A stretch of DNA of 55,326 nucleotides from an uncultured Methylococcaceae bacterium (GTDB lineage: Bacteria > Pseudomonadota > Gammaproteobacteria > Methylococcales > Methylococcaceae): assembly GCA_903857165.1 (NCBI GenBank), contig CAIODU010000113.1:1-55326 (forward strand), read 5' to 3'. Under the pieces are notes generated by a model. It saw nothing but the letters and a program-made list of their open reading frames with translations. It ran no database searches and had not been told where the DNA came from. This document shows positions 46,584-50,951 of the stretch, piece by piece. A program made the position numbers and the translations under genes. The number at the start of each line of letters is the position of its first letter. Within the stretch, counting starts at the first letter, position 1.

Positions 46584-46940
46584 TCAATAATTGACGGAAA
46601 CCATGGCGGGTTCTGTGAAATCCCCCTGCCACAGCTTTTCCAATTGATAAAACTCGCGGGTTTGCGGTTTCATGACATGGATGATGGCATCGCCAAGATC
46701 AACCAAGACCCATTCCCCGGTGTTTTCGCCTTCCACACCGATGGGCGTGAGATGGTTCTCCTTCATTCTTTCCACCACACGGCCGGCGAGGGACACCACA
46801 TGCCGGTCGGACGTGCCGCTGGCGATGACCATGTAATCGGTGATGTTGGTTTTGTCCCTGACATCTATCACCTTGATGTCGTTGCCTTTGCCGTCGTCCA
46901 GTGCGGACAGCGCGAGAGTCAGTATTTGGTTGCTTTGCAT
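46584..46940 (-). CDS. rsfS: Ribosomal silencing factor RsfS
   Basis: A 118-residue RsfS/Iojap protein that binds uL14 on the 50S subunit and blocks joining of subunits in starvation. Conserved blocks: DDGKGNDIKVIDVRDKTNIT, DYMVIASGTSDRHVVSLAGR, GEWVLVDLGDAIIHVM and REFYQLEKLW. Length and ending are normal. The usual neighbours nadD and rlmH are not beside it here. Confidence 0.97.
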   Translation of the reverse strand: MQSNQILTLALSALDDGKGNDIKVIDVRDKTNITDYMVIASGTSDRHVVSLAGRVVERMKENHLTPIGVEGENTGEWVLVDLGDAIIHVMKPQTREFYQLEKLWQGDFTEPAMVSVNY

Positions 46941-47341: not shown

Positions 47342-47821
47342 ATGAACGATGGGAAATTAATTGACGAAACGGAAGCCTTGCCGCTTGTAAATAATGCCAG
47401 CAAAACAACGCTTGCCCCGGAAGGCCGGCAAGGTTTGGATCAACGGCGGCGGCGTCTGCTGCGCGGGGCGGCAGGGATTGCCCCGGTGGTGCTGACTTTG
47501 CGTAGCGGGGCGTTGGCGGCTTCGTCTTGCACAGGTGTGAGACTAAGGACCAATACCGATGTGAATGCCCAATTCACAGATACATCAGGCACCGTAGTTG
47601 CGGGAGACACATGCGTCATAGTATCAGACGAATTGCTCTGTCCACCCAATAAAATAAGGGCCGGGGCAAGCGGAGGGTATACTACAGTTACAGCTACGAT
47701 ACCAACGGTACCGGCTTCGCCAGCTTGGCAATGCAAAAATGCAACTGGGACCGATTTTGTGAGTAAAACAAATGTGGCGATACTCAGTAGCACTTCGGCT
47801 AGTTCACTTAATATTGTATAA
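47342..47821 (+). CDS. Exported protein heading the HPr-rel-A cluster (possible substrate)
   Basis: A 159-residue protein with GGGAG upstream. The first 40 residues are polar, then a twin-arginine-like signal RRRRLLRGAAGIAPVVLTL ending in GALAASS. The mature part of about 95 residues has four cysteines (SSCTG, GDTCVIV, LLCPPN, WQCKNA) and is rich in Thr, Ser and Ala, with a Ser/Thr-rich end (SSTSASSLNIV). I recognise no family. Its position 20 bp before the PqqD-like gene suggests that it is the substrate modified by the cluster or its exported product; this is inference. Confidence 0.65.
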   Translation: MNDGKLIDETEALPLVNNASKTTLAPEGRQGLDQRRRRLLRGAAGIAPVVLTLRSGALAASSCTGVRLRTNTDVNAQFTDTSGTVVAGDTCVIVSDELLCPPNKIRAGASGGYTTVTATIPTVPASPAWQCKNATGTDFVSKTNVAILSSTSASSLNIV

Positions 47822-47841
47822 TAGACTTCCATAGGTTCTTA

Positions 47842-48159
47842 ATGCAGGTTTTTTTTGGTTCAAAGACCCTGCTTTTGATGTCCGCAGGTAAGGAGTTAGT
47901 TTGGCAAACGTGGGACAATGTTTATATTGTGTATCAGGCTTCCTCTGCGGAAACCCATTTATTCAACGAAACCACCGAATTGATTTTGAAGTCCTTGAAA
48001 CATCAGCCATTGACTAGGGAGGAACTCAACAATTGCGTAGTGGCATCCCTTGGAATCACCGGAAGTGAATTGTTGGCTGAGGATATGGAATTTGCCGTCA
48101 GTCGATTAGTGGAGTTGGGCATTATTGATTGGTCGGCTGATGTCGAAACCGGCCCATGA
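47842..48159 (+). CDS. HPr-rel-A system PqqD-family protein
   Basis: A 105-residue PqqD-like protein. The fold is visible as beta segments (LVWQTWDNVYIVYQASSAET), then HLFNETTELILKSL, where the hydrophobic helix follows the typical L-F/L-N-x-T/S motif, then helices (REELNNCVVASLG, LLAEDMEFAVSRLVELGIID). PqqD-like domains bind leader peptides in many peptide-modification pathways (RRE). It overlaps the kinase gene by ATGA. An ATG at 47878 is an alternative start. Confidence 0.85.
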   Translation: MQVFFGSKTLLLMSAGKELVWQTWDNVYIVYQASSAETHLFNETTELILKSLKHQPLTREELNNCVVASLGITGSELLAEDMEFAVSRLVELGIIDWSADVETGP

Positions 48160-49073
48160 GGGTTGGCGAATTGATGCAAGGGGAATTGGAAAGTCGTCTG
48201 GCCGGTAAGGGATTAACCGTTCAGCTTGGCCCCTTCAATATCAGAATCCAAACGGATGTTGCGCCATTCCCCCTGCTTATCCACCAACTTTATCAGTCTT
48301 ACCGATTGACACCGACGGATGAAATTGGCGACTTTAACGTTCGAATTGCAAGGCCTAAAAGTCTGCGTCGATGGTTTCGGCAGCAGATATTTTTTTCCGT
48401 GGATGGTCGCTCTCCATTTGCCCCCTATTCCATCGAACATTCCTTTCCCGCCCTTGAATGGGGCATCAACTGGTGCATAGCCACCCGCGCCCACCATCTC
48501 CTAATGCTACACTCGGCGGTTGTCGAGCGCAATGGCAATGCCATTTTGTTTCCCGCTTGGCCTGGCCATGGCAAATCCACCTTATGCACCGCACTGGTTT
48601 TTTCCGGCTGGCGGCTTTTATCCGATGAATTTGGCCTAGTGCGCCCCGAGGATGGCTTATTGCTGCCGATACCCCGGCTGATTCCGCTGAAGAACGAATC
48701 CATAGACGTGATCAAAAACTTTAGGCCGGAGGCGGTCATTGGCCCTTCTTTCCTAAAAACCCGCAAAGGCACCGTGGCCCATGTCATACCGCCCGAGGAC
48801 AGTATTTTAAGATCGCAGGAACCGGCCAAGCCCCGTTGGTTGATTTTCCCGCGTTGGGTTGCGGGTGCGCCGCTTAGTTTGGAACCCATCCCTAAAAGCC
48901 AAGCTTTCTTGATGGTGGCCACCAATGCCTTTAATTATGAAGTGTTGGACCAAACTGCCTTCCGGCTCGTCACCGACATGGTGAAGGCTTGTGACTGTCA
49001 CTCACTGGTGTATTCCGACCTCAGCGAGGCAGTCGCCGCCATCGACGCATTGACACGGCCCACCGATGGGTAA
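48156..49073 (+). CDS. HprK-related kinase A
   Basis: A 305-residue member of the HPr-kinase-like family. P-loop FPAWPGHGKSTLCTALVFSG (about residues 130-149), then WRLLSDEFGLV with the acidic residues expected after the P-loop. The sequence before it (LLMLHSAVVERNGNAILF) has the conserved H-S/A-A that precedes the kinase core. True HprK phosphorylates HPr on serine; no HPr gene is nearby. HprK-like enzymes in some lasso-peptide clusters phosphorylate the peptide, so an exported protein or peptide substrate is a fair hypothesis. Overlaps both neighbours, so tightly co-translated. Confidence 0.87.
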   Translation: MRVGELMQGELESRLAGKGLTVQLGPFNIRIQTDVAPFPLLIHQLYQSYRLTPTDEIGDFNVRIARPKSLRRWFRQQIFFSVDGRSPFAPYSIEHSFPALEWGINWCIATRAHHLLMLHSAVVERNGNAILFPAWPGHGKSTLCTALVFSGWRLLSDEFGLVRPEDGLLLPIPRLIPLKNESIDVIKNFRPEAVIGPSFLKTRKGTVAHVIPPEDSILRSQEPAKPRWLIFPRWVAGAPLSLEPIPKSQAFLMVATNAFNYEVLDQTAFRLVTDMVKACDCHSLVYSDLSEAVAAIDALTRPTDG

Positions 49074-50211
49074 AGTGTCCTTGCAAACCGCCAGGGCAAA
49101 TCAAATATTGCTCGATGCCATCCTAACGCCGGAGAAACTCCCCTCCCTTCCGCCGGCAGACTGGGATTTGCTCATTCGCGTAGCCCGCCGCGTCAGATTG
49201 CTTGGCCGCTTGGAAGCCGACTTGTCCAACGCAGGTCTGCTAGGCATGATTCCGGCCAAGGCAGCGGAACATTTGCGGGCGGCGCGTAACGTGATCGAAC
49301 ATCGCAGGACTTTGGTGACCTGGGAAGTCAACCGCTTGCTCTGGGCGCTTAAGGGAACCGATGTCCCCATCATCTTGCTCAAGGGTGCTGCCTACATGGT
49401 GGCCGGTCTGCCCCCTGCGCCTGGCAGACTGTTTGCCGATGTCGATTTACTGGTCCCGGAAGAACGGGTTGCCGGGATTGAGGAAAAATTAGTCTCCAAG
49501 GGATGGTTTAAGATGGAAATCGACCCCTACGATGACCGCTACTACCGGGTTTGGATGCATGAAATCCCGCCGCTACGACACCGGGAGCGTGGCACTGAAA
49601 TCGATATCCACCATCGGATTCTGCCTAGGACAAGCCGCCTCAAGCCTGATCCGGCGTTGTTGTTTGAAGCGGCATTGCCGCTTGCCGACCCGCGTTTGCG
49701 CATCTTGGCACCTGCCGATTTGGTGCTGCATTCCGTGGTCCATTTGTTTTTGGAGGGCGACCCCACTGAAGGCTTGCGGTTTAGGGATTTGCTGGACCTT
49801 CACCTGCTGCTAGGTCATTATGGACAGGCACCGGGTTTCTGGGAAGGCGTGGTGCCCCGTGCATGCCGTCTTGGCTTGGCGCGTCCCCTGTATTATGGCC
49901 TGCGATTCACGCAACATTTTTTTGCCACCGGCATCCCGAAAACAGTCCTAGATGAAATCAACCGTCTACGCCCCGTCTGGCCGATCCGTGCATTGATGGA
50001 TTTTCTAGTCCCGTTGGCTATATTGCCCGGTCACCCCGACCACCCCAATCGGTTGGCAAGCTTGGCACGTTGGCTACTGTACATCCGCGCCCACTGGCTG
50101 AAAATGCCGCCGGTGATGTTAGTGCGGCATTTGTCGTACAAAGCCTACCTAAGATTTCGCGGCATCAACAAAAAGGTCGACTTGGCCCAGCTTGACCTTA
50201 GGCAGCAATAA
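49066..50211 (+). CDS. Nucleotidyltransferase-family protein of the HPr-rel-A cluster
   Basis: A 381-residue protein of the NTP_transf_5 type. The centre has the active-site pattern: PIILLKGAAYMVAGLPP, then RLFADVDLLVPEERV with D-x-D (about residues 125-127), and the third acidic site in GTEIDIHHRIL (about 178-188). Helical C-terminal domain with LHSVVHLFLEGD and LRFRDLLDLHLLL. It probably transfers a nucleotide to a protein or small-molecule acceptor. It overlaps the kinase gene by eight bases and ends the four-gene unit. Confidence 0.85.
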   Translation: MGKVSLQTARANQILLDAILTPEKLPSLPPADWDLLIRVARRVRLLGRLEADLSNAGLLGMIPAKAAEHLRAARNVIEHRRTLVTWEVNRLLWALKGTDVPIILLKGAAYMVAGLPPAPGRLFADVDLLVPEERVAGIEEKLVSKGWFKMEIDPYDDRYYRVWMHEIPPLRHRERGTEIDIHHRILPRTSRLKPDPALLFEAALPLADPRLRILAPADLVLHSVVHLFLEGDPTEGLRFRDLLDLHLLLGHYGQAPGFWEGVVPRACRLGLARPLYYGLRFTQHFFATGIPKTVLDEINRLRPVWPIRALMDFLVPLAILPGHPDHPNRLASLARWLLYIRAHWLKMPPVMLVRHLSYKAYLRFRGINKKVDLAQLDLRQQ

Positions 50212-50318: not shown

Positions 50319-50951
50319 GTGGCTGAGCCAAGCAAGGGCAAATTAGTCTTGTGGAACGACGGGAAGGGTTTCGGTTTTGTCCGCCACGAGTCCGATGGGA
50401 AAGATTTGTTTCTCCACATTAGCGCGATCAGAAACTACCGTAAAGGCTTGAGCCGACGTCCAGCGGCGGGGGATATCGTCCATTACCAGCCGCTCAGCCA
50501 TGAAGAAGTCAAAGGCCCAAGGCGGATTAGTGCCGCGATGGTCATTGGCATCAACGATGCCATCTTTGGCATTGATGCAGAATCGGGGTCGTGGTGGAGT
50601 GTGCTGGGTTTGAAATTATTGGCCGGGACACCGATTTTGTTATCGTTCTACCTTATCTGGCGGACGGGCAACCTCATTCCGCTGGTTTCCTATATCTTCA
50701 TGAGTGCGCTGTCATCCCTATATTATGCGGTCGATAAGCGTAGGGCTTTGATGAATTCATGGAGGATACCGGAAATATACCTCCATTGCTTTGAACTGTT
50801 GGGCGGATGGCCGGGGGCTTTGCTGTCGCAGAAGGCATTTAGGCATAAGAAAAAAAAGGGGGATTACCAGCGGGTATTTTGGGAGATCGTCACCTTGCAC
50901 GGGCTGATATGGCTGGTGTATTTGTATTTCGATCTCACTAGGCATAAGTAG
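50319..50951 (+). CDS. Cold-shock domain protein with DUF1294 membrane domain
   Basis: A 210-residue protein with a GTG start (GAGAGAG upstream). N-terminal cold-shock domain with the RNP motifs GKGFGFV and DLFLHIS (about residues 15-35). A short linker, then DUF1294 with four membrane helices (LKLLAGTPILLSFYLIW, LIPLVSYIFMSALSSLYYAVDK) and the typical RRALMNSWRIPEIYLHCFEL and GGWPGALLSQKAFRHK. The CSD-DUF1294 fusion is common in proteobacteria, with unknown role. Single gene. Confidence 0.92.
   Translation: MAEPSKGKLVLWNDGKGFGFVRHESDGKDLFLHISAIRNYRKGLSRRPAAGDIVHYQPLSHEEVKGPRRISAAMVIGINDAIFGIDAESGSWWSVLGLKLLAGTPILLSFYLIWRTGNLIPLVSYIFMSALSSLYYAVDKRRALMNSWRIPEIYLHCFELLGGWPGALLSQKAFRHKKKKGDYQRVFWEIVTLHGLIWLVYLYFDLTRHK

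Follow-up and report, generated by a model that had tools for sequence, protein, structure and literature searches.

Gene content and enzymes of the cassette

The window, i.e. the whole stretch of DNA analysed here, comprises 55,326 nucleotides of a contig from an uncultured Methylococcaceae bacterium, and the locus of interest is a set of four forward-strand genes at positions 47342-50211. The first of these (gene 1; 47342..47821) is an ORF for an exported precursor of 159 aa that was recognized by a leader-profile match and is proposed to be the dedicated substrate of the remaining three. The next ORF begins after 20 bp and codes for a PqqD-like protein with a predicted leader-binding (RRE) fold (47842..48159; TIGR04353, 51.6 bits, cut-off 35). 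It is followed by the HprK-related kinase A (48156..49073; TIGR04352, 396.6 bits, cut-off 200) and an NTP_transf_5 transferase (49066..50211; PF14907, 186.5 bits, cut-off 31.2). Thus, the four-gene cluster of the original prediction is recovered in full, as are the overlaps that it described between the last three genes, which amount to 4 bp (48156-48159) and 8 bp (49066-49073). It had also held that a radical SAM enzyme, cyclase or protease is lacking, and indeed none was found adjoining the four genes among the ORFs and family profile matches of the window; the lasso-type B2 leader protease and C cyclase are likewise absent from the cassette and its immediate flanks. The flanking genes, rsfS (46584-46940, minus strand) and a CSD-DUF1294 gene (50319-50951), both look unrelated. 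As Proteobacteria and Planctomycetota both contain further loci with the identical four-gene order, the arrangement is not a product of chance.

Further afield, the window contains, all on the minus strand, a CcdA/CcdB-type toxin-antitoxin pair (PF07362 and PF01845; 44680-45238) about 2 kb from the cassette, a GDSL lipase/acyltransferase (PF00657; 43423-44679) with a weak PEP-CTERM-like tail that falls below the cut-off (E=0.09), and a purE-like ORF (PF00731; 53668-54174). The last matches just the first ~82 of the 148 profile positions and is probably frameshifted, either in the genome or in the assembly.

The predicted model of the PqqD-like protein (pLDDT 87.4) recovered, as its best Foldseek match, the lasso leader binder TbiB1 in its complex with the leader (6.9e-4). 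In VIA-align comparisons two structures headed the list together, TbiB1 (Z 9.5, rmsd 3.1 over 88 residues) and the portion of NisB that binds leaders (Z 9.6, rmsd 3.6 over 90 residues), and further RiPP enzymes were among the matches that followed. The protein is hence predicted to possess a leader-binding RRE-type fold, and a hand-over role would fit this fold, although a shared fold by itself does not show function.

The kinase retains H119, K140, D157 and E158 in 176/176 sequences, and in alignments with the HprK structures 1jb1 and 2qmh (E about 0.004) its catalytic His, Walker A Lys and Asp coincide with those of HprK. It differs from HprK in that only the P-loop core aligns, in that the second acidic residue, Asp in HprK, is Glu in 176/176 cassette kinases, and in having an exported protein as its genomic partner. 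In the transferase K106, G107, R121, D125, D127 and D180 are kept in 148/148 sequences, with D125, D127 and D180 forming a DxD motif and a third Asp. Searches of PDB sequences initiated with a single kinase or transferase sequence recovered no match, and one with a transferase profile recovered nothing meaningful. We also considered a toxin-antitoxin reading of the transferase and rejected it, the AbiEii match (E=0.083) being too weak and the partner genes unfitting. In two lineages, one of them in the Pirellulales (L023, L104), the kinase and transferase are fused into one protein. In several Magnetococcales loci, including L035, L043 and L046, the transferase was not found in the sampled flank, and thus the transfer step may be optional; in these three an ORF of ~566 aa directly follows the kinase instead, which implies that the second enzyme may alternatively be replaced or encoded elsewhere.

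A common leader on diverse exported proteins

Gene 1 matches no Pfam or NCBIfam family. The protein has four cysteines (C63, C91, C100 and C131) plus QRRRRLLRGAAGIAPVVLTLRSGALAA, and its AlphaFold model (pLDDT 56) is too poor to support a fold search. The four cysteines, which the original prediction had noted in the exported protein, are present and kept by close relatives, but they are confined to the passenger family of the window and are not a feature of the system as a whole; for instance, the Planctomycetota passengers L020, L023 and L030 have no cysteine at all. The part shared across passenger families is instead the leader, which in gene 1 occupies residues 36-61 (47447..47524, plus strand; the RRRRLLRGAAGIAPVVLTLRSGALAA region). 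Over the loci it is ~31 aa long, and in the window and 50 of 52 relatives it follows a consensus of roughly RRRxLxxGxxxxPVxLTLxSxxxxA, within which lies a near-invariant [TS]Lx[SN] stretch (T52 and S55 of LTLRSG in gene 1).

The leader probably doubles as an export signal of the Tat type. The twin-arginine-like signal of the original prediction fits gene 1 by eye, which displays an RR motif, a hydrophobic stretch and an AxA site, but the generic models TIGR01409 and PF10518 fail to call the window protein, and for this reason we infer the Tat route rather than assign it. Many relatives carry the canonical SRRxFxK motif, and TatC is encoded in the genome of the window. Tat export would also be in keeping with modification inside the cell, since this route carries folded proteins.

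A scan of GTDB contigs, by which alone Planctomycetota were sampled, recovered 52 relatives of the kinase. An upstream ORF with the leader segment was present in 50 of these and in the window; of the two exceptions, one is cut at the contig end (L019) and the other is divergent (L053). A leader profile built from this first set and applied unchanged to new loci gave a match immediately before the PqqD-like gene in 23/26 loci of a class-level sample, where one of the three misses (L075) has too little upstream DNA and one of the 26 (L077) duplicates L052, and in 24/29 loci of a later set, three of which (L181, L183 and L184) repeat earlier loci. Among the loci gathered before that later set, 171 had at least 900 bp of upstream DNA, and in 148 of them an upstream leader ORF scored at least 13 bits. 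In at least 12 of the remaining 23 a divergent leader ORF is recognizable by eye (L053, L060, L085, L086, L140, L142, L144, L145, L147, L148, L154 and L157). A substrate ORF was not found in the sampled flanks of L100, L101, L107, L150, L151 and L182; most of these flanks also lack an upstream PqqD-like gene. Conservation of the first gene beside the other three had been set in advance as a test that could refute the prediction, and the prediction withstood it: of ~200 loci, the large majority have the leader ORF next to the enzymes.

Whole-genome searches with a leader-only profile (A1) extend this association beyond immediate neighborhoods. In the window's genome the single significant match is gene 1 (E=8.1e-11; the next at 0.55). 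In 26 further genomes, a leader protein was detected in 13 of the 14 that possess the kinase, the only miss being G709, where L118 shows a weak candidate upstream (13.2 bits), and in none of 11 kinase-negative relatives; a twelfth (G718) with a marginal match interrupted by a stop (E=0.016) was left out. With the window's genome included, this amounts to 14/15 kinase-positive against 0/11 kinase-negative genomes (Fisher p=1.6e-6). All six kinase-positive genomes scored as lacking an upstream substrate encode a leader protein elsewhere: downstream of the kinase in G1094, G1132, G1024 and G861, and distant from it or on a different contig in G712 and G757. Hence, the anticipated co-occurrence of gene 1 with the enzymes holds across genomes, unlinked copies included, and the designation of the gene 1-type protein as their dedicated substrate is well supported. 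In an order-level sample the kinase was present in 76/201 genomes and 26/48 genera, with one copy above threshold per positive genome, indicating a patchy distribution. Cassettes are also borne on plasmids of Vibrio alfacsensis and Sphingomonas parapaucimobilis, where RefSeq annotates the substrate as a 'hypothetical protein'.

Behind the leader the passengers vary widely. The precursors with their export-type leaders range from 75 to 300 aa, and 162 substrates fall into 35 passenger families without BLAST similarity to each other at E<1e-4; none of the passengers matches a Pfam or NCBIfam family. A minimal version (L070) consists of the leader followed by ~14 residues ending in SCNASLI. On the kinase tree the passenger families need at least 34 changes. 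Identity between the window and its two closest kinase relatives (L002 and L003) is 69-80% for the kinase and transferase, against just 32-49% for the substrate and PqqD-like protein. The 35 families may nevertheless represent diverged homologues rather than replacements.

Serine motifs as candidate acceptor sites

Two kinds of serine motif recur in the passengers. One lies near the C-terminus, where it takes forms such as SCWGSFH, SCLTSF, TCYASL and SCNASL; its counterpart in gene 1, AILSSTSASSL (residues 146-156; 47777..47809, plus strand), is a candidate acceptor region that contains S149, which is invariant in the close passenger family of the window. The other (SxxxSGN or SxxxS[GA], e.g. 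CTVSGMMSGNLS and CNTTSAWGSA) directly follows the leader and belongs to the large SPGYWK-type family and the Roseateles family. The C-terminal pattern, which was partly drawn after looking at the sequences, matched 8/19 early and 8/16 later families as against 0.8 expected from shuffles. Once frozen, it matched 5/10 fresh substrates that were neither of the N-type nor repeats, and two unlinked substrates recovered by their leader alone have SCWASL near the C-terminus.

When passengers were labelled by N- or C-type acceptor motif, using slightly widened patterns, the type switched only twice on the kinase tree (minimum of 36 and mean of 43 in 50 shuffles); as inheritance alone can yield such clustering, we regard it as support and not as proof. 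A de novo motif search of whole passengers did not rise above shuffles at width 6 (86.3, equal to the null maximum), while at width 8 it did (120.4 against 112.5) with a mixed pattern that is not the proposed motif. The serine motif was thus not recovered in this way, and the case for it is accordingly based on the C-terminal test. Moreover, 13 of the 35 passenger families display neither serine pattern.

Proposed mechanism and relationship to known systems

The enzymes of the cassette are an already named system, HPr-rel-A, to which they are linked by the adjacent kinase (TIGR04352) and PqqD-like protein (TIGR04353, the PqqD-family peptide chaperone), both above the curated cut-offs. Among the NCBIfam models searched, only the enzymes have names, and none of the models matches the substrate. 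Four elements appear to be new as far as the libraries show, subscription papers and NCBI family notes lying outside that scope: the family of precursors, the leader that they carry, their occurrence together with the kinase and the serine motif that recurs in them. Neither the term 'HPr-rel-A' nor the passenger strings SPGYWK, TPGYWK and GYWKNH were found in the literature searched, which was likewise restricted to papers outside subscription.

The closest functional parallels come from tailored lasso peptides. According to two reviews (PMC9266682, PMC8498205), the HprK homologue PadeK acts on a lasso precursor by phosphorylating its C-terminal Ser, and PsmK does likewise in pseudomycoidin, where the 'nucleotidyltransferase' PsmN places one or two hexoses on the phosphate, with true nucleotidylation being considered possible. 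The PqqD-like PadeB1 binds its own leader at about 5 nM (PMC5067487). The cassette has in common with these systems an HprK-like kinase, a PqqD-like leader binder and a nucleotidyltransferase, likened to PsmK and PsmN by their description in those reviews, and the acceptor Ser near the C-terminus that they report has a candidate equivalent in cassette substrates. Lasso peptides differ in having a B2 protease, a C cyclase and a short precursor, none of which is seen in the cassette, the precursor of the window being 159 aa. A different kind of parallel is offered by the DUF2063-type RRE with DUF2282 precursors (PMC12710340), which similarly combines an RRE with a precursor carrying an export signal, but uses Sec-type signals and other enzymes, the paper mentioning no HprK-like kinase or nucleotidyltransferase. 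Of the features typical of RiPP systems, the cassette displays the predicted RRE fold and a dedicated precursor for its enzymes, the leader of which is conserved. The best reading of the cassette is as RRE-guided tailoring with an HprK-like kinase, applied to whole exported proteins.

In the scheme that we consider rather probable, the cassette modifies one dedicated exported substrate through leader binding, serine phosphorylation, decoration of the phosphate and export. Gene 1 would be synthesized with a leader that also serves as the export signal, probably for Tat. In the cytoplasm the PqqD-like protein would bind the leader region and bring the precursor to the HprK-type kinase for ATP-dependent phosphorylation of a Ser. 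For the family of the window, the likeliest site of this Ser is the C-terminal motif, and for the other main family it is the SxxxS[GA] motif that directly follows the leader. A hexose or nucleotide would then be attached to the phosphate by the NTP_transf_5 enzyme, and cleavage at the AxA site during export would remove the leader, so that the protein released from the cell would be modified and probably disulfide-bonded. This order, with leader-guided phosphorylation followed by decoration of the phosphate, is favoured on account of the lasso precedent and a fusion of PF14907 to a B2 protein in Deinococcus.

The most credible variation on this scheme concerns the last enzyme, which might transfer an NMP rather than a hexose, either onto the phosphate or directly onto the protein, or might work independently of the kinase. 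This is quite possible, if short of our expectation: the nucleotidyltransferase-type active site with its three acidic residues is kept throughout, and the pseudomycoidin review leaves room for PsmN as a true nucleotidyltransferase with a host enzyme adding the sugar. On the other hand, the in vivo product of PsmK and PsmN reported there bears hexose on the phosphate, and the kinase-transferase fusions imply coupled action. A more radical departure would place the modification in the leader, where the modified site could lie given that the leader is the sole part common to all substrates. The kinase and its PqqD-like helper might act on leader residues such as T52 or S55, holding or releasing the folded precursor while the mature protein stays unmodified. 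The near invariance of [TS]Lx[SN], in proteins whose passengers share little else, speaks for such a gate; we nonetheless deem it unlikely, as it offers no obvious job to the transferase, which is rarely missing and in some cases joined to the kinase in one protein. In addition, the enzymes of related lasso systems act on the core rather than the leader, and serine motifs recur in the passengers. Finally, the extreme variability of the passengers and their want of any recognized family could suggest that gene 1 encodes an ordinary exported protein that merely lies beside the enzymes, and that these target another protein. However, the near-universal linkage, the matching presence and absence across genomes, the unlinked copies recovered by the leader alone and the single copy in the window's genome make this highly improbable.

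The scheme of leader-guided phosphorylation and decoration has wider implications. In the libraries searched the enzyme families have no assigned substrate; with the leader profile, one can be named for almost all kinase-positive genomes checked, and the chemistry thereby becomes directly testable. Should the scheme be correct, the RRE/kinase/transferase logic of tailored lasso peptides would reach whole exported proteins, and the leader could be used to steer a phosphate-linked tag onto chosen proteins. More tentatively, the cassettes might point to a widespread, hitherto undefined class of exported proteins in Gram-negative bacteria, in which one leader precedes many unrelated passengers and the RRE, kinase and transferase place a phosphate-linked sugar or nucleotide on Ser prior to export.

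The Deinococcus fusion itself was recovered in a search with the transferase of the window as a plasmid protein of D. psychrotolerans, in which PF14907 is joined to a lasso B2 protein. On that plasmid (L232:762-7233) a PqqD protein, an HprK-like protein, a 63-aa ORF and the NTP_transf_5-B2 fusion are encoded together, possibly as a lasso-related cluster; these genes surround an ExeM/NucH nuclease gene.
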